Of a stretch of DNA of 64,000 nucleotides, positions 6,479 through 24,804 are shown piece after piece. The stretch spans positions 3,404,001 to 3,468,000 of the forward strand of contig NZ_AP019782.1 of NCBI RefSeq assembly GCF_019669985.1, in the 5' to 3' direction. Source of the stretch: Methylogaea oryzae (GTDB taxonomy: Bacteria; Pseudomonadota; Gammaproteobacteria; Methylococcales; Methylococcaceae). Numbering within the stretch: position 1 is the first letter of the stretch; every line of letters starts with the position of its first letter. Below the pieces are notes generated by a model. That model was not told the origin of the DNA, did not search any database, and saw nothing but the letters and a program-made list of their open reading frames with translations. The translations under genes and the position numbers were made by a program.

Positions 6479-9412
6479 ATGGCACAGACTCGCTTTTTCA
6501 GCCTTCGAGCCAGGTTGCTGCTATTGGTTGGGCTCGCCGTCTTGCCGTTATTTGCCGTGGTTGTTTACGACAGCCTGCGGCAACGCCAGGAATCCCTCGC
6601 CGCCGCCCAGCGCCAAGCGCAGGAACTGGCGGAAACGGCGGCGCTGCAGCAGCAACTGATTTTTGGACACACCCAACAGATACTGTCCTCGCTGGCTAAA
6701 ACCGGCGAACTTTATACCGGCAAAATACAAGGGAAATGCGCGGAACTGGGCACCGAATGGCTGCGCCGCTTCCCCTATTACATCAACTTCGGACTGATCG
6801 CTCCCGACGGCACGGTGTTGTGCAGCGTGGTGCCTTTCAAAGGCGCGGTCAATTTGGCCGACCGCGATTATTTTCGCCAAGCCCGGGACAGCCGCGACTT
6901 CGCCATCGGCCGCTACCAAACCGGCCGCATCACCGGAAAACCCACGGTAAATGCCGCCTATCCGTTGGTAAGCGAAGGCCGCTTGGTCTACGTCGCCTAT
7001 CTTGCCATCGATTTATCCTGGCTAAACACGCTGCTGAGCCACATTCAGCTGCCGCCCGACTCCAACGTGGCGCTCATCGACAACGAAGGCACGGTGTTGG
7101 CGGCTTACCCCCCCGACACGTTTAACATCGGCCAAAGCCTGCCGGATTTTCCCCGGCTCAGGGCGGCCATGGCCCTCGGACCCAGCAGCGTCACCGAATG
7201 GATCGACGAAGCGCAGATCGAGCGGGCAACGCTACTCCATGCGTTGGACTCCACCTCCAGGGGGTCCACCTTTCTCACCCTGAGCACCCCCAAGCGGCGG
7301 CTGTACGCGGAAGCCAACCGCATGCTCGGCCAGCGCCTCGCATGGCTCGGCCTGGCCCTGGCGTCGGTGCTGGCCGCGGCGTGGTTGGGCAGTGACGTGT
7401 TGATTCTGCGCAAATTGCGGCGGCTTAACGCCGCGATCCTCGACTTCGGCCAAGGCGATCTCAGCGCGCGCACCGGACTGGCTCCGGCCGCCGACGAGCT
7501 GGGCACACTGGCGAAATCGTTCGACCACATGGCGCACAGGCTGCAACAGCAGGAAGAAAAGCTACAACAGGCCATCACCGAGCTGGGCAACGTGAACCGC
7601 GCCCTGCACCTGCTCAGCGCCGGCAATCGCACCTTGCTGCACGCCAAGGAAGAAACGGCGCTGCTCCAAGCCATGTGCCGGGTGGCCGTGGAAAAAGGCC
7701 ATTACCTCATGGCGTGGGTCGGCTATTGCGCGGACGACGAAAGCCAAGCCATTCTTCCCATGGCGCACGCCGGCGTCGCCCTCGATTACCTGCAACGGAT
7801 CCGCGTCAGCTGGGGGGATAACGAATTCGGGCAAGGCCCCATAGGACGAGCCATCCGCTCCGGCAGCCCTTTCGCGGTGAACGACACGCTCACCGATCCC
7901 GCGTTCTCGCCCTGGCGCGAGGCGGCGGAGAAAAACGGCTATCGCTCGGTGATCGCATTGCCGTTGCGGGTGGACGGCAAAGCGCTGGGGGTGTTGGCGA
8001 TTTATGCGCGCGAACCCGATGTGTTCGGCGCCCAACAGCTGGAACTGCTCAGCGAAACGGCGGCGGACCTGGCATACGGAATCGCCACCATCCGTCTGCG
8101 CGCCGACCACGAAAAAGCCCAAGCCTCCCTGGTGAAGCTGGCTTTCCACGACACGTTGACGGACCTGCCCAACCGCGCCGCCCTCAACCAGCGCCTCAGC
8201 GAGCTGTTGGCCCGGTCGCGCGACCGCAACCTGCCGTTCGCCCTGCTGGAACTGGACGTCAACCGGCTGCGCGACTTCAACGAAGCGTTCGGCTACGGCG
8301 AAGGAGACCTGCTGTTGCACAAGCTGGCCCAGCGCCTGCGCAGTGCCGTCGCGGACGGCGACATGGTCGCGCGCATCGGCGAGGACGAATTCGGCATTCT
8401 CCTTCCCGGCTGCGACGCTTCCCGCGCCCAGGAGGTGGAAAACCGCATCCTCCAATACCTGGAAGAGCCTTTCGAAATCAACAACTTGGTCATTGACGTA
8501 CGCACCACCACCGGCATCGCCCTGTTTCCCGAACACGGGGATAGCGTCGATTTGCTGTTCCGCCGCGCCAATAAGGCGATGTACGAGGCGAAACAGAAAG
8601 GCGCCGATTACTTGTTGTTCGACGGCGGCGAAGACCAGGACTGCGCCCGCCGCCTCATGCTGGTGGGCGAGCTGCGGCGGGCGGTGGAGAGTCCGCCGCA
8701 GCTGTTGCTGTACGGGCAACCCAAGATCGATCTCCGCACCGGCAAGGCCAGCAGCGCCGAACTGCTGATGCGCTGGCAGCATCCGGTGCGGGGCATGATA
8801 GCGCCGGGCGAATTCATACCGCTCGCGGAACGCACCGGATTGATCAAGCCGCTGACCTACTGGGCCCTGGAGGCCGGCATGAGCCACGCCCACGCCTTGC
8901 TGCAAAAGGGTTTGGACGTGGCGCTCGCGGTCAATCTTTCCGTCTGCAACCTGCACGATCCCAAGCTGCTGGAACGGATCGACGAGCTCTGCCAAACCTG
9001 GGGCGTGGCCGCCGAAAAAATCCAGCTGGAACTGACGGAAAGCGCCTTGATGGACGACCCGGACAGCGCGTTGAAAACGCTGTGCCAACTGAGCCGGCGG
9101 GGCTTCGAATTGCACGTGGACGACTTCGGCACCGGCTACTCGTCCCTCAGCTATTTGCAGAAGCTGCCGGTCAGCATCATCAAGATCGACCAGTCGTTCG
9201 TCCGGGATATGGACAGCAATCCCAACTCCGCCACCATCGTGCACTCCACCATCGAACTGGCCCATAGCCTCAACCTCAAGGTTGTCGCCGAAGGCGTGGA
9301 AAGCCAGGTGATCCTCGATCGGCTAGCCTCGCTGGGCTGCGACATGGCGCAGGGATACCACATCGCCAAGCCCATGGCGGTCGAACAACTGGCCGCATGG
9401 CTGGACCGTTGA
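6479..9412 (+). CDS. Membrane sensor with Cache, HAMP, GAF, GGDEF and EAL domains
   Basis: A 977-aa c-di-GMP enzyme. Order: TM1 (about 9-28), periplasmic Cache-type sensor (about 30-275), TM2 (about 285-305), HAMP (about 305-360), GAF (about 390-545), GGDEF (about 550-715), EAL (about 730-977). The GGDEF signature is GEDEF (634-638) and the inhibitory RxxD site is absent (Ala at the Arg position). The EAL signature reads ELL (761-763), but the metal and catalytic set looks intact: Asn in AVNLS, ELTES, DDFGTGYSS, Lys in IIKIDQSF and Glu in VAEGVES. Phosphodiesterase activity is therefore likely; cyclase activity is uncertain. The GAF domain could bind a small ligand. An aggag ribosome-binding site precedes the ATG. 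It stands alone, with the next gene convergent. Confidence 0.95.
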   Translation: MAQTRFFSLRARLLLLVGLAVLPLFAVVVYDSLRQRQESLAAAQRQAQELAETAALQQQLIFGHTQQILSSLAKTGELYTGKIQGKCAELGTEWLRRFPYYINFGLIAPDGTVLCSVVPFKGAVNLADRDYFRQARDSRDFAIGRYQTGRITGKPTVNAAYPLVSEGRLVYVAYLAIDLSWLNTLLSHIQLPPDSNVALIDNEGTVLAAYPPDTFNIGQSLPDFPRLRAAMALGPSSVTEWIDEAQIERATLLHALDSTSRGSTFLTLSTPKRRLYAEANRMLGQRLAWLGLALASVLAAAWLGSDVLILRKLRRLNAAILDFGQGDLSARTGLAPAADELGTLAKSFDHMAHRLQQQEEKLQQAITELGNVNRALHLLSAGNRTLLHAKEETALLQAMCRVAVEKGHYLMAWVGYCADDESQAILPMAHAGVALDYLQRIRVSWGDNEFGQGPIGRAIRSGSPFAVNDTLTDPAFSPWREAAEKNGYRSVIALPLRVDGKALGVLAIYAREPDVFGAQQLELLSETAADLAYGIATIRLRADHEKAQASLVKLAFHDTLTDLPNRAALNQRLSELLARSRDRNLPFALLELDVNRLRDFNEAFGYGEGDLLLHKLAQRLRSAVADGDMVARIGEDEFGILLPGCDASRAQEVENRILQYLEEPFEINNLVIDVRTTTGIALFPEHGDSVDLLFRRANKAMYEAKQKGADYLLFDGGEDQDCARRLMLVGELRRAVESPPQLLLYGQPKIDLRTGKASSAELLMRWQHPVRGMIAPGEFIPLAERTGLIKPLTYWALEAGMSHAHALLQKGLDVALAVNLSVCNLHDPKLLERIDELCQTWGVAAEKIQLELTESALMDDPDSALKTLCQLSRRGFELHVDDFGTGYSSLSYLQKLPVSIIKIDQSFVRDMDSNPNSATIVHSTIELAHSLNLKVVAEGVESQVILDRLASLGCDMAQGYHIAKPMAVEQLAAWLDR

Positions 9413-16385: not shown

Positions 16386-16790
16386 CTATTGTTCCTGGGT
16401 GATGAAAGCCAGCTTGGTGATGCCGGCGTGCTGAGCCAGGGCCATCACCTGGGCGACCTTGCCGTAAGGCACGGCGGTGTCGGCGTGGAACTGCACGGTG
16501 GTCTCGGGATCGCCTTTCAATTGGTCGCTGAAGCGTTGCCCCAGGGCTTCCAGCGCCGTGGCCTGCTCGTTGACCGTGATGCCGCCCTGGGCGTCGATGC
16601 TGACCGTCAGCAGGTGTTTTTCCGGCGCCGGCGCGGCCTGTTCGGTTTTCGGCAGGTTGACGTGCACCGCCTGGGTCAGCAAAGGCGCTGTGACGATGAA
16701 CACCACCAGCAGCACCAGCATCACGTCCACCAGCGGCGTGACGTTGATTTCGGCCATCGCTTCGTCGGAGGACTCGGTCTTGAACGCCAT
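16386..16790 (-). CDS. exbD: ExbD/TolR family biopolymer transport protein
   Basis: A 134-aa inner-membrane protein. A short cytoplasmic N-terminus leads into one TM helix, INVTPLVDVMLVLLVVFIV (about 15-33), with the conserved Asp in LVDVML. The rest is a periplasmic domain. With ExbB it harvests proton motive force for TonB. Last of tonB-exbB-exbD; two nt separate it from exbB. Confidence 0.92.
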   Translation of the reverse strand: MAFKTESSDEAMAEINVTPLVDVMLVLLVVFIVTAPLLTQAVHVNLPKTEQAAPAPEKHLLTVSIDAQGGITVNEQATALEALGQRFSDQLKGDPETTVQFHADTAVPYGKVAQVMALAQHAGITKLAFITQEQ

Positions 16791-16792
16791 GC

Positions 16793-17455
16793 TTATTTAC
16801 CCTCGTTGGCTTGCAGATTGGCCTTGACGGCCAGGTGGAGAAAATCGGTGGCGAAATATTCCAGTTCCGCCTCGCACAGCTTAACTTGGCGCAGGAAAAA
16901 ATTGTAGGCCAGCACCGCTGGGATGGCCGCCGCGATGCCGATGGCTGTGGCGATCAAGGCTTCGCCGATGGGACCCGCCACCACGTCCAGGCTGGCGGAA
17001 CCGGCGTGGCTGATGTCCTGCAAGGCGTGCATGATGCCCCACACCGTGCCGAACAGGCCGACGAAGGGCGAGGTGCTGCCGACGCTGGCGAGGATCGACA
17101 AGCCCTGCTCCAAGGCCTTGCGTTCCTTGCTGATCTGCTGGCGCAGGCAGCGCTCCAGGATTTCCTGCACGTCGCCGCTCAGTTGCAACATGCGCGACGT
17201 GTTGCCCTGCCAATCCGCCAGCAAGGCGAAACCGGCGCCGGCGATGCGGCCGATGGCGCTGGAAGACTGATCCAAGCGCACCGCTTCGCTCAGGTCGGCG
17301 GCGCTCCAAAAAGCCTGGGCGTAGGCGCGGTTGCCGCGGTTCACGCGCCACTGCTCGTAACTCTTGAGAAAAATGATCGCCCAAGTGACCACGGAAAAGC
17401 CGATCAACACCCAGAGCGTAATCTGGACGATGCCCGCCGACGACATTTCTACCAT
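16793..17455 (-). CDS. exbB: MotA/TolQ/ExbB proton channel family protein
   Basis: A 220-aa protein with the three-helix ExbB/TolQ topology: TM1 at about 10-28, a long cytoplasmic loop, then two C-terminal helices. Family landmarks are LASVGSTSPFVGLFGTVWGIM (about 115-135) and EALIATAIGIAAAIPAVLAYN. Pairing with tonB and exbD identifies it as ExbB rather than TolQ. Confidence 0.92.
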   Translation of the reverse strand: MVEMSSAGIVQITLWVLIGFSVVTWAIIFLKSYEQWRVNRGNRAYAQAFWSAADLSEAVRLDQSSSAIGRIAGAGFALLADWQGNTSRMLQLSGDVQEILERCLRQQISKERKALEQGLSILASVGSTSPFVGLFGTVWGIMHALQDISHAGSASLDVVAGPIGEALIATAIGIAAAIPAVLAYNFFLRQVKLCEAELEYFATDFLHLAVKANLQANEGK

Positions 17456-17465
17456 AGCCTTGCCC

Positions 17466-18143
17466 TCAGTTTTTTAGTTTGAAATCGATGGGGATGATGA
17501 CCCAACTGTCCACCGCTTTGTCCCCTTCCTTGGCCGCGACGAAACGCCACTGCCGCACAGCCTCCAACGCCGCTTCGTCCAGAACGTCGTGGCCGCTGCT
17601 GCGCTCCAGCCGCACCTCGCCCGCGGTGCCGTCCGCCAGGATGCGGGTGCGAACCAGCACCTCGCCCTGCCAGTGGCGCTCCCGCGCCATGGATGGATAG
17701 CGGGGCGGCGGATTCTGCAAATAATTCGCCTTGTAATTGGCCTCTTGAAACGGCGCCGGAGCGGGCGCAGCAGGCGCTGCGGCGGCCGGCGGGGGCGGCG
17801 CTTCCGCTACCGGCTCCGGCGTAGGCGCGGGCTCCGCCTGTTTGAGCGGCACAGGCCGCGGCAAAGGCTTGGGCTTTTTCGGCAGCGGTTTTTCCGGCGG
17901 CTTGGGCGGGGGCGGTTTAGGCGGCTCGGGTTGCGGCTGGGCCACCAGCCTGGGTTGGCTGACCAACGCCACTTCCACCGCCCGTTCCAGGCGCGCCGGC
18001 ACGGCGGCCGGCTGGTTGCGCCAAGCCTGCCATGCGGCCAAGTGCAGCGCGGTGGCGACAATAACGGCCAAAGTCCTGGCCGCCCAGCGATTTTGCGGGT
18101 CGGATCGTAAGATGTTCAAGAGGTTTAGCGCTGCCGCTCGCAA
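17466..18143 (-). CDS. tonB: TonB family energy transducer
   Basis: A 225-aa TonB-like protein that carries ExbB/ExbD energy to outer-membrane receptors. It has a short cytoplasmic N-terminus, one TM helix (AARTLAVIVATALHLAAW), a long Pro-, Lys- and Ala-rich periplasmic spacer (about 50-140), and a C-terminal TonB domain with YLQNPPPRYPSMARER, GEVLVRTRILADG and DEAALEAVRQWRF. No ATG lies near the N-terminus; TTG at 18143 or the TTG at LNILRS is likely, so the exact start is uncertain. First gene of the tonB-exbB-exbD operon. Confidence 0.9.
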   Translation of the reverse strand: MRAAALNLLNILRSDPQNRWAARTLAVIVATALHLAAWQAWRNQPAAVPARLERAVEVALVSQPRLVAQPQPEPPKPPPPKPPEKPLPKKPKPLPRPVPLKQAEPAPTPEPVAEAPPPPAAAAPAAPAPAPFQEANYKANYLQNPPPRYPSMARERHWQGEVLVRTRILADGTAGEVRLERSSGHDVLDEAALEAVRQWRFVAAKEGDKAVDSWVIIPIDFKLKN

Positions 18144-18244
18144 AGAACCGAATAGCCTGAAAAGCCCCGGCGCGAGGCCGCGCCGGCCGCGTCATTGTAA
18201 TCCAGTTTTAAGCAAGGACCGCAGCAATAGGTGGGCCGCATCCG

Positions 18245-20128
18245 TCAGACCTCCACCACGCAGCCCAGCTCCAGCACTCGATCCACCGGCAACTGGAAAA
18301 ACGCGATAGGACTGGAAGCGTTGCGGAACATGGAAATGAACAGCTTTTCCTGCCAGGGATTCAAGTCGGGACGATCCGACGGCATCAGCGTTTCCCGGCC
18401 GAGGAAGAAGGTGGTGTCGGCCAGCTCGATGTCCAGCCCGGCGCCGCGGCACAAGCGCAAGATCTTGGGCACGTTGGGCGACTCCATGAAACCGTAGCGG
18501 GCGGTGACGCGGTAGAAGCCGTGCTCCAGCCGCTCCACTTGAACGCGGCCGCTATCGGCGATGTGCGGCACGTCCTCGATATCCACCGTCAGCAACACCA
18601 CCCGCTCGTGGACGACCTTGTTGTGCTCGAAGTTCTGCAACAACGTCACCGGCATGCTCAGATGCCGGGCGGTGAGGAAAACCGCCGTGCCGGACACCCG
18701 CTGCGGCGCCAGCCGACCGATGTCCTCCAGGAAGGTCTTCAGCGACATGGCCATGTTCTGGATGCGATGACGCAGCACCGTGCGGCCCTTCTGCCAAGTC
18801 CACATGATGAAGAATATCGTGATGCCCAACACCAAGGGGAACCAGCCGCCCTGGGGAACTTTGGGCACGTTGGCGCTGAAGAAGGCCAAATCCACCGAGA
18901 GGAAGACGCCGAACAACGGCGCCGCGTACAACGGCCGCCAACGCCAGAAATCCATGGCCACGATAAACGCCAGCAGGGTGTCGATCGCCATGGCCCCGGT
19001 CACGGCGATGCCGTAGGCGGCAGCCAGGTTGGAGGAGGTATGGAAATACAGCACCAGGCCGATCACGCCGAACAGCAGCATGCGGTTGATGCCGGGCACG
19101 TAGATCTGGCCGATTTCCGCTTCCGAGGTGTGCACGGTTTTCTGGCGCGGCAGGTAGTCCAGCTGCATGGCCTGGCGGGTGATGGAAAACGCGCCGGAAA
19201 TCACCGCCTGGGAGGCGATCACCGTGGCCAGGGTCGCCAGGCCGATCATGGGCAGCAGCGCCCAGGACGGCGCCAGCAGGTAAAACGGATTCTGGATGGC
19301 TTGCGGATCGCGCAGGATCAACGCGCCCTGGCCCAGATAGTTGAGCATCAGCGGCGGCAGCACCAACAGGAACCAGGACACGCGGATCGGATTGGGACCG
19401 AAATGGCCCATATCGGCGTACAGCGCCTCGCCGCCGGTCAAGGCCAGCACCACGGCGCCCAGCACCAGGAAGCCGTGCCAGCGGTGCTCCGCGAAAAAGT
19501 GCAGGGCATGGGCCGGATTCAGCGCCTGCACGATTTCCGGGCTTTGCTGGATGCTCAGCACGCCCCAATACCCCAGCGCAAAAAACCACAGGCACATGAT
19601 CGGGCCGAAGGCCAGGCCCACCTTGCCGGTGCCCAGGCGCTGGATGGCGAACAACCCCACCAGCACGACGATGGCGATGGGGAGAATGAAGGCATGCAAA
19701 CCGGGCGCCGCCACCTCCAACCCTTCCACGGCGCTCAGCACGGAAATCGCCGGCGTAATAAAGCCATCGCCATAAAAAAGGGCTGTCCCGAACAGCCCAA
19801 CCCCCATGATCCACGCTCGCTGCCAGGGAATATGGCGACGCTGCAACGCCAGCGTGGTCAAGGCCATGATGCCGCCCTCGCCTTGGTTGTCGGCGCGCAT
19901 GATGAAGATCACGTACTTGATGGAAATGACCAACGTCAGCGACCAGAAAATCAGCGACAGGATGCCGAATACGTTGGCCTGGTCCACCGCCATCGCATGG
20001 GGGCCGTTGAATACCTCCTTCAGCGTATAAAGCGGGCTGGTGCCCACGTCGCCATATACCACGCCCACCGAAGCCAGGGAGAGCGTCAGGAAGCCGGAGC
20101 CTTTGGGTTCGTCGTGGGCATGGGTCAT
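18245..20128 (-). CDS. kup: Kup family low-affinity potassium uptake protein
   Basis: A 627-aa H+-coupled K+ importer. About twelve helices fill the first 440 residues. Family signatures are GVVYGDVGTSPLYTLKEVF (about 23-41), YGDGFITPAISVLSAVEGLE and GEALYADMGHFG. A cytoplasmic C-terminal domain of about 180 residues follows, ending PVDRVLELGCVVEV. It starts 19 nt after the stop of the first NhaD antiporter gene, so K+ uptake and Na+ extrusion are probably co-expressed. Confidence 0.97.
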   Translation of the reverse strand: MTHAHDEPKGSGFLTLSLASVGVVYGDVGTSPLYTLKEVFNGPHAMAVDQANVFGILSLIFWSLTLVISIKYVIFIMRADNQGEGGIMALTTLALQRRHIPWQRAWIMGVGLFGTALFYGDGFITPAISVLSAVEGLEVAAPGLHAFILPIAIVVLVGLFAIQRLGTGKVGLAFGPIMCLWFFALGYWGVLSIQQSPEIVQALNPAHALHFFAEHRWHGFLVLGAVVLALTGGEALYADMGHFGPNPIRVSWFLLVLPPLMLNYLGQGALILRDPQAIQNPFYLLAPSWALLPMIGLATLATVIASQAVISGAFSITRQAMQLDYLPRQKTVHTSEAEIGQIYVPGINRMLLFGVIGLVLYFHTSSNLAAAYGIAVTGAMAIDTLLAFIVAMDFWRWRPLYAAPLFGVFLSVDLAFFSANVPKVPQGGWFPLVLGITIFFIMWTWQKGRTVLRHRIQNMAMSLKTFLEDIGRLAPQRVSGTAVFLTARHLSMPVTLLQNFEHNKVVHERVVLLTVDIEDVPHIADSGRVQVERLEHGFYRVTARYGFMESPNVPKILRLCRGAGLDIELADTTFFLGRETLMPSDRPDLNPWQEKLFISMFRNASSPIAFFQLPVDRVLELGCVVEV

Positions 20129-20146
20129 GATGCGGCTATCCGGTAA

Positions 20147-21727
20147 TCAGAAATAACGGCCGTTGAGCAAAAAGTGCGCGCCGATGCTGGCGAAATACCC
20201 CAAGGCGATGGCCGGCGTCCACTTCAAATGGATCACGAAGCTGTAGGCGCCCTTGGCCTGGCCCAGCAGCCCCACGCCGGCCGCCGACCCCACCGCCAAC
20301 AAGCTGCCGCCCACCCCGGCGGCCAGGGTCACCAACAGCCATTGGCCCTGGGAAATGTCCGGCGCCATGGTCAGCACCGCCAGCATGATGGTGCCGTTGT
20401 CGATGAAGGCCGAGGCGATACCCACCAGGATATTGGCCACGGTGGGGTCGATTTCGCCGTACAGGTAATGGGACGCCACGGTCAGGTAACCGAGGAAGCT
20501 CAAGCCGCCGACGCCGACCATCACGCCGTAGAAAAACAGCAGCGTGTCCCATTCCAGCTGGGCAACCTTTTGGAAAATATCGAACGGCTGGCTACGCTCC
20601 GCCTCGGCCAGGGCCTTGATCCGGCTCCGCTCCTGGGCGTCCAGCACCTGGCGCAATTGCTGTTCGGTGATGATGTGTTCGGTCAGCAGCAACTCGCCCA
20701 AACGGGGGCCGGCGACGGCCGGAGCGCTTTTCGCGGTGATCTCCATTTGCTGCAATTCCAGATCGTCCGGGTCGGCCACCGGCTGGGCGTCGGCCTCGCG
20801 TTGCGCCGTGACTTGCAGGTAAAAACTGAAGAACTTCAAGTAAGTCAGCCCCATCAACATGCCGGCCACCGGCGGCAGCTTGAGGAAGTTTTCGAAGCAA
20901 GCGGCCGTCACGATGGTCAAGGCGAACAGCACGATGATGGTCATACCGCCGCGCTTCAAGGCCGGCGCCTCCAGCACCGCCGCCGGCTTTTCCTTGGGTA
21001 TCCAGAAATGCATGATGGCGGCCGGCACGGCGAAGTTGACGATGGACGGAAGCAGCAAGGCGTAGAAATCGCCGAAAGGCACCACGCCTTTTTGCCATAC
21101 CAACAGGGTGGTGATGTCGCCGAACGGGCTGAAGGAACCGCCGGCGTTGGCCGCCACCACCACATTGATGCAGGACAAGGCGACGAACGTGGGACAGTCC
21201 TTGCCCATGGCCAAGATCACCGCCCCCATCAGCAACGCCGTGGTCAGGTTATTGCAGACCGAAGAAATCCAGAAAGCCAGAATACCGGTGATCCAAAAAA
21301 GCTGGCGATAACTGAAATTCTTGCTCAGCAGCCAGACCCGCAAGCTGTCGAAGACGCCCCGATCCTCCATGGCGTTGAGGTAAGTCATGGACACCATCAC
21401 GAACAGGAACAGCTCCGCATAACCTTCCAGCGCCGAGCGGAACGCCGCTCCCACCAGTTCGCCCATGCCGCCGGCGGCATAGACGGCGGCGATCACCATC
21501 CAAATCAGGCTGGCCGCCAGCACCATGGGTTTGGACTTGCGCAGAGTGGTCAGTTCTTCGGTCGTGGCGAACAGGTAAGCGACGGTGAATAGCGCCAAAG
21601 CCAGATAGCCGGCCCAATGACCGGTCAAGTCGAGGGGCCGCGTCGAGGCGCCCGCATCTTCGGCCGCTACGGACAAGGAAGGGATAAGCAAAGCAAACGG
21701 GATCGGCAAATACTTCAGCAGGGGCAT
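20147..21727 (-). CDS. nhaD: NhaD-type Na+/H+ antiporter with MshEN-like insert
   Basis: A 526-aa antiporter with a probable N-terminal signal (PFALLIPSLSVAAEDAG) and about twelve helices. NhaD hallmarks: SSVCNNLTTALLMG, NAGGSFSPFGDITT, AEWDTLLFF-like LEWDTLLFFYGV, AFIDNGTIML and GGSLLAVGSAAGV. Unusually, a hydrophilic insert of about 90 residues (about 310-400) contains RLGELLLTEHIITEQQ... at 342-365. This fits the 24-residue motif of c-di-GMP-binding MshEN domains at every constrained position except one (His for Gly at position 10). Only one of the two motifs of a full MshEN is present. It is followed by kup. Confidence 0.93.
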   Translation of the reverse strand: MPLLKYLPIPFALLIPSLSVAAEDAGASTRPLDLTGHWAGYLALALFTVAYLFATTEELTTLRKSKPMVLAASLIWMVIAAVYAAGGMGELVGAAFRSALEGYAELFLFVMVSMTYLNAMEDRGVFDSLRVWLLSKNFSYRQLFWITGILAFWISSVCNNLTTALLMGAVILAMGKDCPTFVALSCINVVVAANAGGSFSPFGDITTLLVWQKGVVPFGDFYALLLPSIVNFAVPAAIMHFWIPKEKPAAVLEAPALKRGGMTIIVLFALTIVTAACFENFLKLPPVAGMLMGLTYLKFFSFYLQVTAQREADAQPVADPDDLELQQMEITAKSAPAVAGPRLGELLLTEHIITEQQLRQVLDAQERSRIKALAEAERSQPFDIFQKVAQLEWDTLLFFYGVMVGVGGLSFLGYLTVASHYLYGEIDPTVANILVGIASAFIDNGTIMLAVLTMAPDISQGQWLLVTLAAGVGGSLLAVGSAAGVGLLGQAKGAYSFVIHLKWTPAIALGYFASIGAHFLLNGRYF

Positions 21728-21885
21728 TTTGCGATGATCGGAAGTGGAAAAATCAGGTCAAAAACCGTGGGTTCTCGCCAGCGCCGCCGCGTTGCGCGGC
21801 GCGCCTTGAAGCAAAACACGCGGGAGAGCCATTCTACATGCGGATGCGGGCCAGTGATATCAATCACATTCGGCGAGCACGGCTC

Positions 21886-23235
21886 TCACGAATGCAGCCA
21901 TTCGAATTGCATATACCAGATTGCGAAGGAGCCAAAAAAATTCGCCAACACCGCCGGCAGAAAACGCAAGTGCGCCGCGAAGGTATAACTGCGCTCAATG
22001 GACATGGCCACGACGCCGGCGGCGGAGCCCACCACGGTCAGACTGCCGCCCACGCCCACCATGAGCGTATTGAGGGTCCATTGGTCCAGCCCCAAGGTCG
22101 GACTCGACATGATCGCCGCCGCCTCCAGCAAGTTGTTGTCGATAAAGCTGGAAACCAAGCCGAGCAGCACGTTGACGAAAGTGGGCGACTCGTGGTCGTA
22201 CAGCCAGGCGATATAGGACAGCCACCCTACATGGTTGAGCGCCGCCATGCCGGTGATGATGCCGATGTAATACATCAGCGTGCTCCACTCAACTTTCTGC
22301 AACTGGATTACCAGCGGCATTTCGATCCCCTTCTTCTTCAGATACCAGATGTAGAGCATCTCGAAACCCAAGCCGGTGCCGATAGCGAATTCTATGTCCA
22401 CCTTCAGGTACATATTGAGCAATACCGCGCCGATGATGGCGGCCAAGCTGATGATGGTCAGCCCCACGCCGCCAGGCTTGATGCCGGCGACCGAGGGCGC
22501 GCCCGTCTCGTCCTCCCTGCGTCTACGCGGGACAGACTCCAGTTCCACTAGGCCTGCGACGGAACGAATCAGCGGCGTCCCATCCAAGCGACGCAGGTAC
22601 AACCCATGCAAAACCAGCGCGCTGAGCACCCAGCCGAAAAAACTGGCGGGGAACAGCAATAAAAGATCGCTCAGCGTTAATCGGTCGGCCAGGATCACCA
22701 TCAGGCTGGTGGAAGTGCCGACGAACCAAACGCCCGAATTGGAGGCGACGATGACGTTGCACAACGCCACGTGGGTGTATTTCTGATTGACGGAAATATT
22801 ACGCACGGCGTTGCTGAACACGATAGACGTGGTCAAGCTGCTGATGAATGGACTCAATACCGCGCAGAAAAAGCCGGTAGCCCAGAACATGCCCCGAGGC
22901 CCCGCGCCTTGCCTCATCAGAAAGTCCGTCAACGCACCAAAAACATTCCGTTCGTTGAGAATTTCCACCATCATCCACATGAAGGCCATGAAGGTAATCA
23001 GGGCGAACAGACTCTCCTTGGTTTCCGCCTGCATGACCTTCAGCGCATGGAAGCGCTCCGGCCCTTCGCCGGTCATCAGATAGTACACACCCAGCACCGC
23101 CACCGAAGACATCATCAGCAGCGCCGGCTTGAACTTGTCCATCGCCAACTGGACTTCCAGGATGATGAGCGCGATCCCCACGACGAAGATGGCGAGTACG
23201 ATGAAACCGATGGGCGAAAAAGGCACAATGGGCAT
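21886..23235 (-). CDS. NhaD-type Na+/H+ antiporter, second paralog
   Basis: A 449-aa polytopic antiporter of the same superfamily, clearly diverged from its neighbour. Equivalent motifs are SPFISSLTTSIVFSNAV, NSGVWFVGTSTSLMV, VEWSTLMYYIGII, SFIDNNLLEAAA and GGSLTVVGSAAGVVAM. It lacks the cytoplasmic insert of the first paralog. It lies 158 nt upstream of that gene on the same strand. Whether it exports Na+, Li+ or another cation cannot be told. Confidence 0.88.
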   Translation of the reverse strand: MPIVPFSPIGFIVLAIFVVGIALIILEVQLAMDKFKPALLMMSSVAVLGVYYLMTGEGPERFHALKVMQAETKESLFALITFMAFMWMMVEILNERNVFGALTDFLMRQGAGPRGMFWATGFFCAVLSPFISSLTTSIVFSNAVRNISVNQKYTHVALCNVIVASNSGVWFVGTSTSLMVILADRLTLSDLLLLFPASFFGWVLSALVLHGLYLRRLDGTPLIRSVAGLVELESVPRRRREDETGAPSVAGIKPGGVGLTIISLAAIIGAVLLNMYLKVDIEFAIGTGLGFEMLYIWYLKKKGIEMPLVIQLQKVEWSTLMYYIGIITGMAALNHVGWLSYIAWLYDHESPTFVNVLLGLVSSFIDNNLLEAAAIMSSPTLGLDQWTLNTLMVGVGGSLTVVGSAAGVVAMSIERSYTFAAHLRFLPAVLANFFGSFAIWYMQFEWLHS

Positions 23236-23559
23236 GATAAGTCTCTGCGGAAGGTAGAGGGTTCAGGATCGGAGGCCGGCAGCCGGCCGCTAAACCGCGT
23301 CCGCGGGGAATTCTACCGCCCCCCCTTCCCCTGAAGGAACCGAGTCTGGGAAACAATTTGTCAACCAAGCCCGGCATGCAGACGGCGGGCGGATCGTCCG
23401 CTTAACCGCAAAAAGCCGAGCGATGCCCCAGGGCCGCCCGCCAGACCGAACTGAGCTAAACGGCCGCAGCGGCAAGACTCGCGCCGGCGACGTTCGCCGT
23501 TCGACTTTCGTACAGAGTTTTTTGCCGCAACGACGACCAACGCATTAACGAACAGCCTC
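23236..23559. other. Intergenic region between divergent antiporter genes
   Basis: About 320 bp separates the second (minus) and third (plus) antiporter genes and must hold both promoters. No convincing gene, operator or promoter hexamer pair stood out. Confidence 0.5.
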
Positions 23560-24804
23560 ATGCCAACGCTTTTCCTCTACACCTGCGCAGCCATGGCGTT
23601 TCTTTGCATTTTGTTCGAAGAACAGTCCAAGATAAGCAAAGCCAAAAGCACGCTGTTTTTCGGCTGCATGGCCTGGATCGGCATGTATATTGAAGCGGCC
23701 CAATCGGAGAGGCCGGAAATCACCGCCGGCTTCAACAGCAATATTCTTGAAATCGCCAGCTTGTGGCTTTTTCTATTCTCGTCCATGACGTTTGTGGCGT
23801 ACATCAATCGCCGGGGCTTGATTGACGCTTTAATGCGATCGGTATTGCCGGCGAAGATGACGGTGAAAAACCTCTTCTACTCCGTCACCCTGTTCTCGTT
23901 TCTGTTCTCCCTGCTTTGCGACAATGCCACCACCGCTTTAGTCGTATCGTCCATTGTCGTGCCTTTGGATTTGGACAAATCCCAGCGTATTCACTTCGCG
24001 ACGGCGATCATATTCGCCGTAACCGCTGGCGGCGTCGCCCTCATAACCGGCGACGTAACAACCATCATGATATTCCTCGCAGGGAAAGTGCATATCACCA
24101 ATTTGCTGCTGCTTGGCGTCGCCGCGTTTGTCGCGGTGGGAGTCCTCGCCCTGCTGCTGGCTAGAGACATGGATGGCGACATCGATTTATCGCTGACCTA
24201 TAAACGCGATTTTGTTTATAACCCGGTAGACATCCTGATCGCCGTCCTGTTCATCCTCACCATTCTGACAGCCATATTCCTCAACCTGTATTTCACTATT
24301 CCGCCGGTTCTCACATTCTTGTTTGGGTTGTCCATTATGCTGATTGTCGGGAGCTACCGGGGCGGCGACAAAATCCTGCACATGCTCGACTACATTCGGG
24401 AAATCGAGTTCGATTCCCTGCTGTTTTTTTTAGGCGTGCTGCTATTGGTCGGCATGCTGGCCCGTATACACGCCCTGGATGCCATTGCGGATATTTACGC
24501 GATACTACCGGCCAGCTTAACCACCTACGTCATCGGCATTCTCGCCGGGATAATCGGCAACGTGCCGCTTACCGCTGCCGTGCTCAAGGCCGATATCGAC
24601 ATGCCGGAACACCAGTGGCTGCTGCTGATTTACGCGGTCGTCATGGGAGGAACTCTGATAATAACGGGGTCTGCGGCGGGGATCGTCACCATGGGGAAAA
24701 TACGGGAGGTAACCATGATGACGTATTTCCGCAACTTCGCTTATCTGGTGCTTGCCTACAGTGTCGGGTTCGGCGTGGTCATGATGCTTGGCCCCTTGGT
24801 TTGA
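23560..24804 (+). CDS. NhaD/ArsB-superfamily Na+/H+ antiporter, third paralog
   Basis: A 414-aa ion-transporter-superfamily permease with ten or eleven helices. Motifs align with the two NhaD neighbours: SLLCDNATTALVVSS, TAGGVALITGDVTTIMIF, IEFDSLLFFLGVLLLVG, GNVPLTAAVLK and GGTLIITGSAAGIVTM. The Asn at the CDN motif and the GSAAG loop are typical of NhaD. It is transcribed away from the other two. Codon use is somewhat more AT-rich than kup or thiC. An ion other than Na+ is possible. Confidence 0.85.
   Translation: MPTLFLYTCAAMAFLCILFEEQSKISKAKSTLFFGCMAWIGMYIEAAQSERPEITAGFNSNILEIASLWLFLFSSMTFVAYINRRGLIDALMRSVLPAKMTVKNLFYSVTLFSFLFSLLCDNATTALVVSSIVVPLDLDKSQRIHFATAIIFAVTAGGVALITGDVTTIMIFLAGKVHITNLLLLGVAAFVAVGVLALLLARDMDGDIDLSLTYKRDFVYNPVDILIAVLFILTILTAIFLNLYFTIPPVLTFLFGLSIMLIVGSYRGGDKILHMLDYIREIEFDSLLFFLGVLLLVGMLARIHALDAIADIYAILPASLTTYVIGILAGIIGNVPLTAAVLKADIDMPEHQWLLLIYAVVMGGTLIITGSAAGIVTMGKIREVTMMTYFRNFAYLVLAYSVGFGVVMMLGPLV

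Follow-up and report, generated by a model that had tools for sequence, protein, structure and literature searches.

The nhaD-1 locus

The window analysed here is a stretch of 64,000 nucleotides from Methylogaea oryzae (contig NZ_AP019782.1, positions 3,404,001 to 3,468,000 of the forward strand). The minus strand carries two of the three NhaD-like genes that adjoin one another at 20147-24804, and the plus strand carries the third. The protein encoded by nhaD-1 contains an insert with a single MshEN motif. The features of the locus are as follows.

18245..20128, minus strand: kup, K+ transporter (PF02705, 626.5 bits)
20147..21727, minus strand: nhaD-1, NhaD-type Na+/H+ antiporter of 526 aa (NF038006 and IT-fold model)
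20543..20551, minus strand: W393-D394-T395, invariant across 57 aligned NhaDs
20552..20785, minus strand: NhaD-1 insert, residues 315-392, delimited by the secondary structure of the model and probably cytoplasmic
20633..20704, minus strand: single 24-residue MshEN c-di-GMP motif, residues 342-365 (consensus fit, NF053729 and model)
21886..23235, minus strand: nhaD-2, NhaD-like antiporter (NF038006, 134.4 bits)
23560..24804, plus strand: third NhaD-like gene (TIGR00775, 170.7 bits; NF038006, 141.2 bits)

NhaD-1 matches NF038006 with 524 bits (E 2.6e-157), far above the equivalog cut-off of 80, and TIGR00775 with 343.5 bits, below the equivalog cut-off of 577.1. With the NhaD antiporters (TC 2.A.62, IT superfamily) it shares the family models, the fold and the invariant residues. 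It differs in an additional, regulatory-looking insert between the equivalents of TM8 and TM9, which are helices 286-314 and 393-412 in the model. The insert ends just before W393-D394-T395. In Vibrio cholerae NhaD, the Asp344-Thr345 pair was reported to be critical for exchange (PMC9408914, PMC1552076). D394-T395 is probably the equivalent pair in NhaD-1.

A single MshEN motif in the insert

The first-pass annotation had placed a MshEN motif at residues 342-365, intact at all constrained positions but position 10, and our analysis confirmed it. The minus-strand translation of 20633-20704 is RLGELLLTEHIITEQQLRQVLDAQ, which is NhaD-1 residues 342-365; the plus-strand translation is an unrelated peptide. 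The published consensus is RLGxx(LVI)(LVI)xxG(LVI)(LVI)xxxxLxxxLxxQ (PMC5013675). Ten of its 11 constrained positions agree in NhaD-1, and the sole departure is His351 in place of Gly at position 10, a residue that the helix turn of MshE is said to require (PMC5013675). The nucleotide-contacting residues of MshE, R1, L2, G3, L17, L21 and Q24, are all present, as R342, L343, G344, L358, L362 and Q365. None of 20,000 shuffles of the insert reached 9 of 11 positions, the best score being 8, in 4 shuffles. When the whole protein was shuffled 3,000 times, 20 shuffles agreed at 8 positions and none at more.

The motif is also recognized by NF053729, the NCBI model of the c-di-GMP motif, at residues 342-369 (E 4.5e-6, 26.4 bits in NhaD-1; E 1.4e-6, 30.4 bits when all six frames of the genome are scanned). 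Both scores fall under the cut-off of 38 bits, as expected because the motif is half a domain. It is the second-best single match to this model in the genome, behind a match in a 649-aa frame from which the best PF05157 hit also comes. A CheA-like frame overtakes it once the two motifs of that frame are summed (46.2 bits). Similarity to DUF4388 is weak, with E values from 0.12 to 2.4e-5, all under the cut-off of that model.

The same 24-residue motif and contact residues are found in the MshEN domains (GSPII, T2SSE_N) of V. cholerae MshE, Thermus thermophilus PilF and Escherichia coli NfrB. In MshEN, one c-di-GMP is bound by two copies of the motif separated by a 5-residue spacer (PMC5013675). 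NhaD-1 differs in having one motif instead of two, a replaced Gly10, no C-terminal subdomain and a location in a transporter loop. That only one motif is present had been noted earlier and stands, as the next best stretch of the protein agrees at only 5 of 11 positions. From its length, the insert should leave no room for the C-terminal subdomain. We conclude that the motif in NhaD-1 is almost certainly a true half MshEN module.

Position of the insert in the transporter fold

We calculated an AlphaFold2 model of NhaD-1 from 57 sequences, with a mean pLDDT of 82.2. It has the IT-superfamily fold: it matches ArsB (10tp) with Z 33.9 and an rmsd of 3.2 over 398, and VcINDY (5uld) with Z 23.9 and an rmsd of 4.4 over 381, VcINDY entries giving Z of 22-24. 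The motif is modelled as a helix at 343-349, a turn and a helix starting from 355, with middling confidence (block means of 57 to 81 over residues 331-370). This helix-turn-helix is the pattern of one MshEN half.

After helix 393-412, the model continues with a short helix and then the second helical hairpin. The same order, TM9-H9c-HPout, is seen in LaINDY and VcINDY (PMC7553777). Judged by this order, the insert should correspond to the loop that joins TM8 to TM9 in the scaffold domain. The alternation of the IT fold presumably puts this loop on the cytoplasmic side. Loops on the presumed cytoplasmic side of NhaD-1 contain 2, 3, 4, 8 and 2 Lys/Arg residues, and those on the other side 0-1 each. 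The fold, the order of TM9, short helix and hairpin, and the Lys/Arg counts together suggest that the insert is cytoplasmic.

Solved IT relatives include dimers, namely Pho90 and ArsB, according to their entry titles, and LaINDY. The TM3-TM4 insertion of LaINDY projects on the periplasmic side, close to the dimer interface (PMC7553777). TM8-TM9 is the inverted-repeat counterpart of TM3-TM4, so by analogy the NhaD insert may be located close to this interface at the cytoplasmic end.

Distribution of the motif among NhaDs

Related NhaD loci were collected from named genomes, and 80 of the 196 relatives found were kept. The loop table and the first tree comprise 111 rows. Duplicates were left out, as were sequences with less than 48% identity, alignments spanning fewer than 380 residues and two rows in which no helix end was recognized; a more careful tree contains 74 of the 111. 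The LKFF..LLFF segment is 103 aa long in NhaD-1, compared to 40-92 aa in 104 of the 107 other rows with the loop. This bears out the earlier remark that the insert before the WDTLLFF helix occupies a region that is short in typical NhaDs. The remaining three rows, with segments of 110-120 aa, are all motif holders.

Six of 311 Methylococcales genomes, M. oryzae and five others, encode the full motif connected to the WDTLLFF helix, always in the same loop. Three of the other NhaDs (L034, L038 and L117) contain one motif each, and two contain a tandem pair, at L057:3265-3507 and L059:4807-5049. All of these except L117 are among the 80 loci kept from named genomes.

The spacer between the tandem motifs is 10 residues in both proteins, compared to 5 in MshEN. 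The two-motif inserts of L057 and L059 score 52.5 and 54.6 bits with NF053729, above the 38-bit cut-off. The tandem motifs make a cleaner test case than NhaD-1. Decayed partial motifs occur in two further genomes, in L120 and in L121, which is the same protein as L035, one of the 80 kept loci.

A PF05157 match, the check put forward in the first-pass annotation, was not obtained: this profile matches neither NhaD-1 nor the inserts of L057, L059, L038, L034 and L117. Because the two-motif orthologues L057 and L059 are also missed, we regard PF05157 as insensitive here and do not use the result as a refutation. Conservation of the insert was also raised in that annotation: five other NhaDs have the full motif, and most examined orthologues lack it. 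Among the 311 genomes of the order, no second genome of the window's family, Methylococcaceae, has a full match, and a genus mate (L023) has a different loop. Outside the genome of M. oryzae, no full motif with an NhaD match was found in 369 genomes of the class (E up to 1e-8) or in 398 genomes of the phylum (E up to 1e-6), two thin samples that overlap.

The TM8-TM9 loop is diverse across the 111 rows. A D[YH]F[AG]PMK-like segment is found in 50, S[DE]FAHVY in 16, the MshEN motif in 6, remnants of it in 2 and other sequences in 37. None of the rows with the MshEN motif or a remnant carries either of the two other segments. The loop looks like a regulatory hot spot of NhaDs.

Predicted fold of the two-motif insert

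The structure of the L057 insert was predicted from two sequences, with a mean pLDDT of 76.7 and a pTM of 0.62. The predicted fold is the four-helix bundle of MshE, and it superposes on MshE residues 7-65. Foldseek returned MshE with c-di-GMP (5htl) first, with an rmsd of 1.3-1.6 over 58-59 columns and a probability of 1.00, the E values of 0.06-0.14 being weak and the domain small. In VIA, 5htl was also the top match (Z 9.5, rmsd 2.4 over 59), and the best unrelated fold had Z 6.0; helical bundles with Z under about 13 possibly have just a common arrangement in common. PilF domains with bound c-di-GMP rank after MshE.

Relatives that do not bind c-di-GMP or that bind PilZ proteins (9g1w, 7lkm and 7lkn) are also matched, so the fold alone does not indicate c-di-GMP binding. 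The evidence from this search, which starts from a predicted model, is the consistency of the match list.

Conservation and constraint

Selection appears to act on the nucleotide-contacting positions. In the eight motif copies of the six NhaDs, R1 is kept in seven, and L2, G3, L17, L21 and Q24 are kept in all eight. The linkers vary in length and sequence. At position 10 the eight copies all have H, Q, N or K instead of Gly. In 16 other copies, caught by a strict pattern in related MshEN loci, it is G in 10, N in 4, R in 1 and H in 1.

The motif has a lower pN/pS than the linker in L114-L117 (0.16 vs 0.38), L116-L119 (0.32 and 0.33 vs 0.60), NhaD-1-L114 (0.29 vs 0.50) and NhaD-1-L117 (0.23 vs 0.83), values that are rough, since synonymous sites are near saturation in the pairs with NhaD-1 and the linkers align poorly. 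These comparisons suggest, roughly, that the motif is under more constraint than the linkers in all four pairs. The membrane half after the motif is tighter still (0.03-0.15). Compared to three other motif holders, NhaD-1 has pS of 0.77-1.01 and motif pN/pS of 0.18-0.29.

Evolution of the motif

The motif is patchy on the NhaD tree, requiring at least 4 changes on the 74-row tree. We considered a single clean origin and rejected it: the eight rows with a motif or remnant do not form a clade (p-AU 5e-48). A clade of NhaD-1 with L114, L117, L120 and L121 was not rejected (p-AU 0.27). Because the holders are scattered on the tree, a gain followed by losses, repeated gain and loop transfer are indistinguishable. 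The NhaD-1 motif is identical to that of L114 at 17 of 24 positions, to other NhaD copies at 13-16 and to the best non-NhaD motif found at 15, and these values do not settle its origin.

The two motifs within one protein are identical at 17 of 24 positions in L119 and at 18 of 24 in L116. Between these two proteins, the first motifs are identical at 14 of 24 and the second motifs at 19 of 24. Such identities suggest that the tandem arose by duplication inside NhaD rather than by import of a whole MshEN.

A possible c-di-GMP input to Na+/H+ antiport

We propose that NhaD-1 has a c-di-GMP input to Na+/H+ antiport, with a half-site completed by the homodimer and a full site in two relatives. Taken as a whole, this proposal is nearly evenly poised between being right and wrong. 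c-di-GMP control is the best single explanation of the sequences, with about an even chance of being correct. We favor it because the place of the single motif in NhaD-1 is taken by two motifs in two relatives. The fit of the motif far above chance, the conservation of the contact residues, the fold matches and the 61 GGDEF matches of the genome also speak for it.

The two motifs of MshE superimpose within 0.8 Å and each binds half of the ligand (PMC5013675), one guanine of c-di-GMP per motif. Two half-sites brought together in a dimer would thus complete the pocket in a natural manner. In the proposed mechanism, each protomer of the transporter dimer would contribute one half-site, and both would close around one c-di-GMP. 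The nucleotide would tie the two scaffold loops together beside the W-D-T helix, locking or freeing them. Na+/H+ exchange could thereby be raised or lowered with the cellular c-di-GMP level; either sign is compatible. In the two-motif relatives, one chain could suffice for a complete site. The motif, its conservation and the two-motif form are observed, and the folds of the L057 insert and of NhaD-1 are predicted; nucleotide binding, completion by a dimer and an effect on transport, of either sign, are what we infer. The more specific arrangement, with c-di-GMP on the two-fold axis of the antiporter dimer and the half-site converted to a full site by tandem duplication in L057 and L059, is possible and on balance doubtful.

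The single motif, the scores under 38 bits and the absence of Gly10 all count against c-di-GMP control, as do the missing PF05157 match, the probable lack of space for a C-terminal subdomain, a fold shared with non-binding relatives and a constraint weaker than that of the membrane half. In PilF GSPII-A, a restored consensus was reported not to bind until other features were removed (PMC12002112). The motif is also dispensable, because two orthologues hold only remnants.

The same helix-turn-helix could instead serve as a protein-docking module, with a PilZ-type or other helical protein as the partner. A single motif alone cannot enclose the ligand, XpsE is described as having lost c-di-GMP binding (PMC5013675), and 7lkm and 7lkn in the fold search are the Xanthomonas citri PilB N-domain bound to a PilZ protein. 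The weak DUF4388 similarity points the same way. We consider docking unlikely, as selection keeps the guanine-contact residues, and two orthologues score as complete c-di-GMP domains.

The motif of NhaD-1 could also be functionless, a once complete or useful c-di-GMP module decaying in a loop that tolerates inserts. The remnants in L120 and L121/L035, the patchy distribution, the absence of the motif from most examined orthologues and the wide variation in loop length and content speak for this. However, NhaD-1 keeps all of the contact residues at the pS and motif pN/pS given above, and we find a relic quite improbable. A generic amphipathic helical hairpin that fits the motif by chance or convergence is conceivable given that NhaD loops are variable and single 24-residue patterns are easily over-read, but the shuffles, the E value in the six-frame scan and the tandem copies above the 38-bit cut-off in two orthologues make it highly improbable.

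c-di-GMP control of NhaD-1 would have partial parallels. NfrB is considered to be activated by c-di-GMP through its MshEN (PMC8669469). Control of potassium transport by c-di-AMP is known in Gram-positive bacteria, and c-di-AMP binds the RCK_C domain of KtrA, listed together with the CpaA antiporter, at a dimer interface (PMC7288161). Both cases, if we are correct, would involve a cyclic dinucleotide that tunes cation transport from such an interface. KtrA RCK_C and CpaA differ from NhaD-1 in nucleotide, domain and transporter fold, and we claim no homology. Our literature search, to which subscription journals were mostly closed, found no MshEN or c-di-GMP binding tied to a Na+/H+ antiporter. 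If the proposal is true, the sodium and pH balance of methanotrophs would be a direct target of c-di-GMP, in addition to pili, secretion and polysaccharide. The half-site, the full site and the remnant in one transporter family would also provide a natural test of a half MshEN working as a dimer.

Gene neighbourhood and other c-di-GMP genes

nhaD-1 is part of a compact minus-strand cluster at 16386-23235 that contains nhaD-2, nhaD-1, kup, tonB, exbB and exbD, the last two named by reading of the sequence. kup starts 18 bases past the nhaD-1 stop. NF053729 has no match in nhaD-2 or the third NhaD-like gene at E up to 1. Eight NhaD-like matches are found genome-wide, some of them perhaps pieces of one gene.

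L034 has the same gene set rearranged, in the order tonB, exbB, exbD, nhaD-1, nhaD-2, kup. nhaD-2 (above 45% identity) adjoins nhaD-1 in 2 of the 80 named loci, L034 and L035, with some loci ending near nhaD-1, and it does so also in the M. oryzae window and in L120. Downstream sequence of 3 kb or more is available for 66 of the 80 loci. Among these, kup lies downstream in the same orientation in 3 of 5 loci with a motif or remnant vs 9 of 61 others, counting L034 and L035, where it comes after nhaD-2. We regard these counts as a weak sign of motif-specific coupling and set kup adjacency aside.

The first-pass annotation had also pointed to a large GGDEF/EAL protein in the window, and it is real.

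6479..9412, plus strand: Cache-HAMP-GAF-GGDEF-EAL protein of 977 aa, with no demonstrated link to nhaD-1

The genome of 4.02 Mb contains 61 GGDEF matches, one per 66 kb. A neighbour of this kind is about what that density would give, and we do not take it as evidence for a link to nhaD-1.

Despite the 61 GGDEF matches, MshEN matches are few, 3 with PF05157 (E up to 10) and 6 with NF053729. The CheA-like kinase mentioned above is a 749-aa frame (L157:535-2781, at about 1320000 in the M. oryzae genome) with two MshEN-like motifs 15 residues apart, a longer spacer than the 5 of MshEN. Similar to NhaD-1, it carries the motifs inside a protein that is not an ATPase; unlike NhaD-1, it is a chemotaxis kinase. 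MshEN together with CheA already appears in a published survey (PMC5013675).
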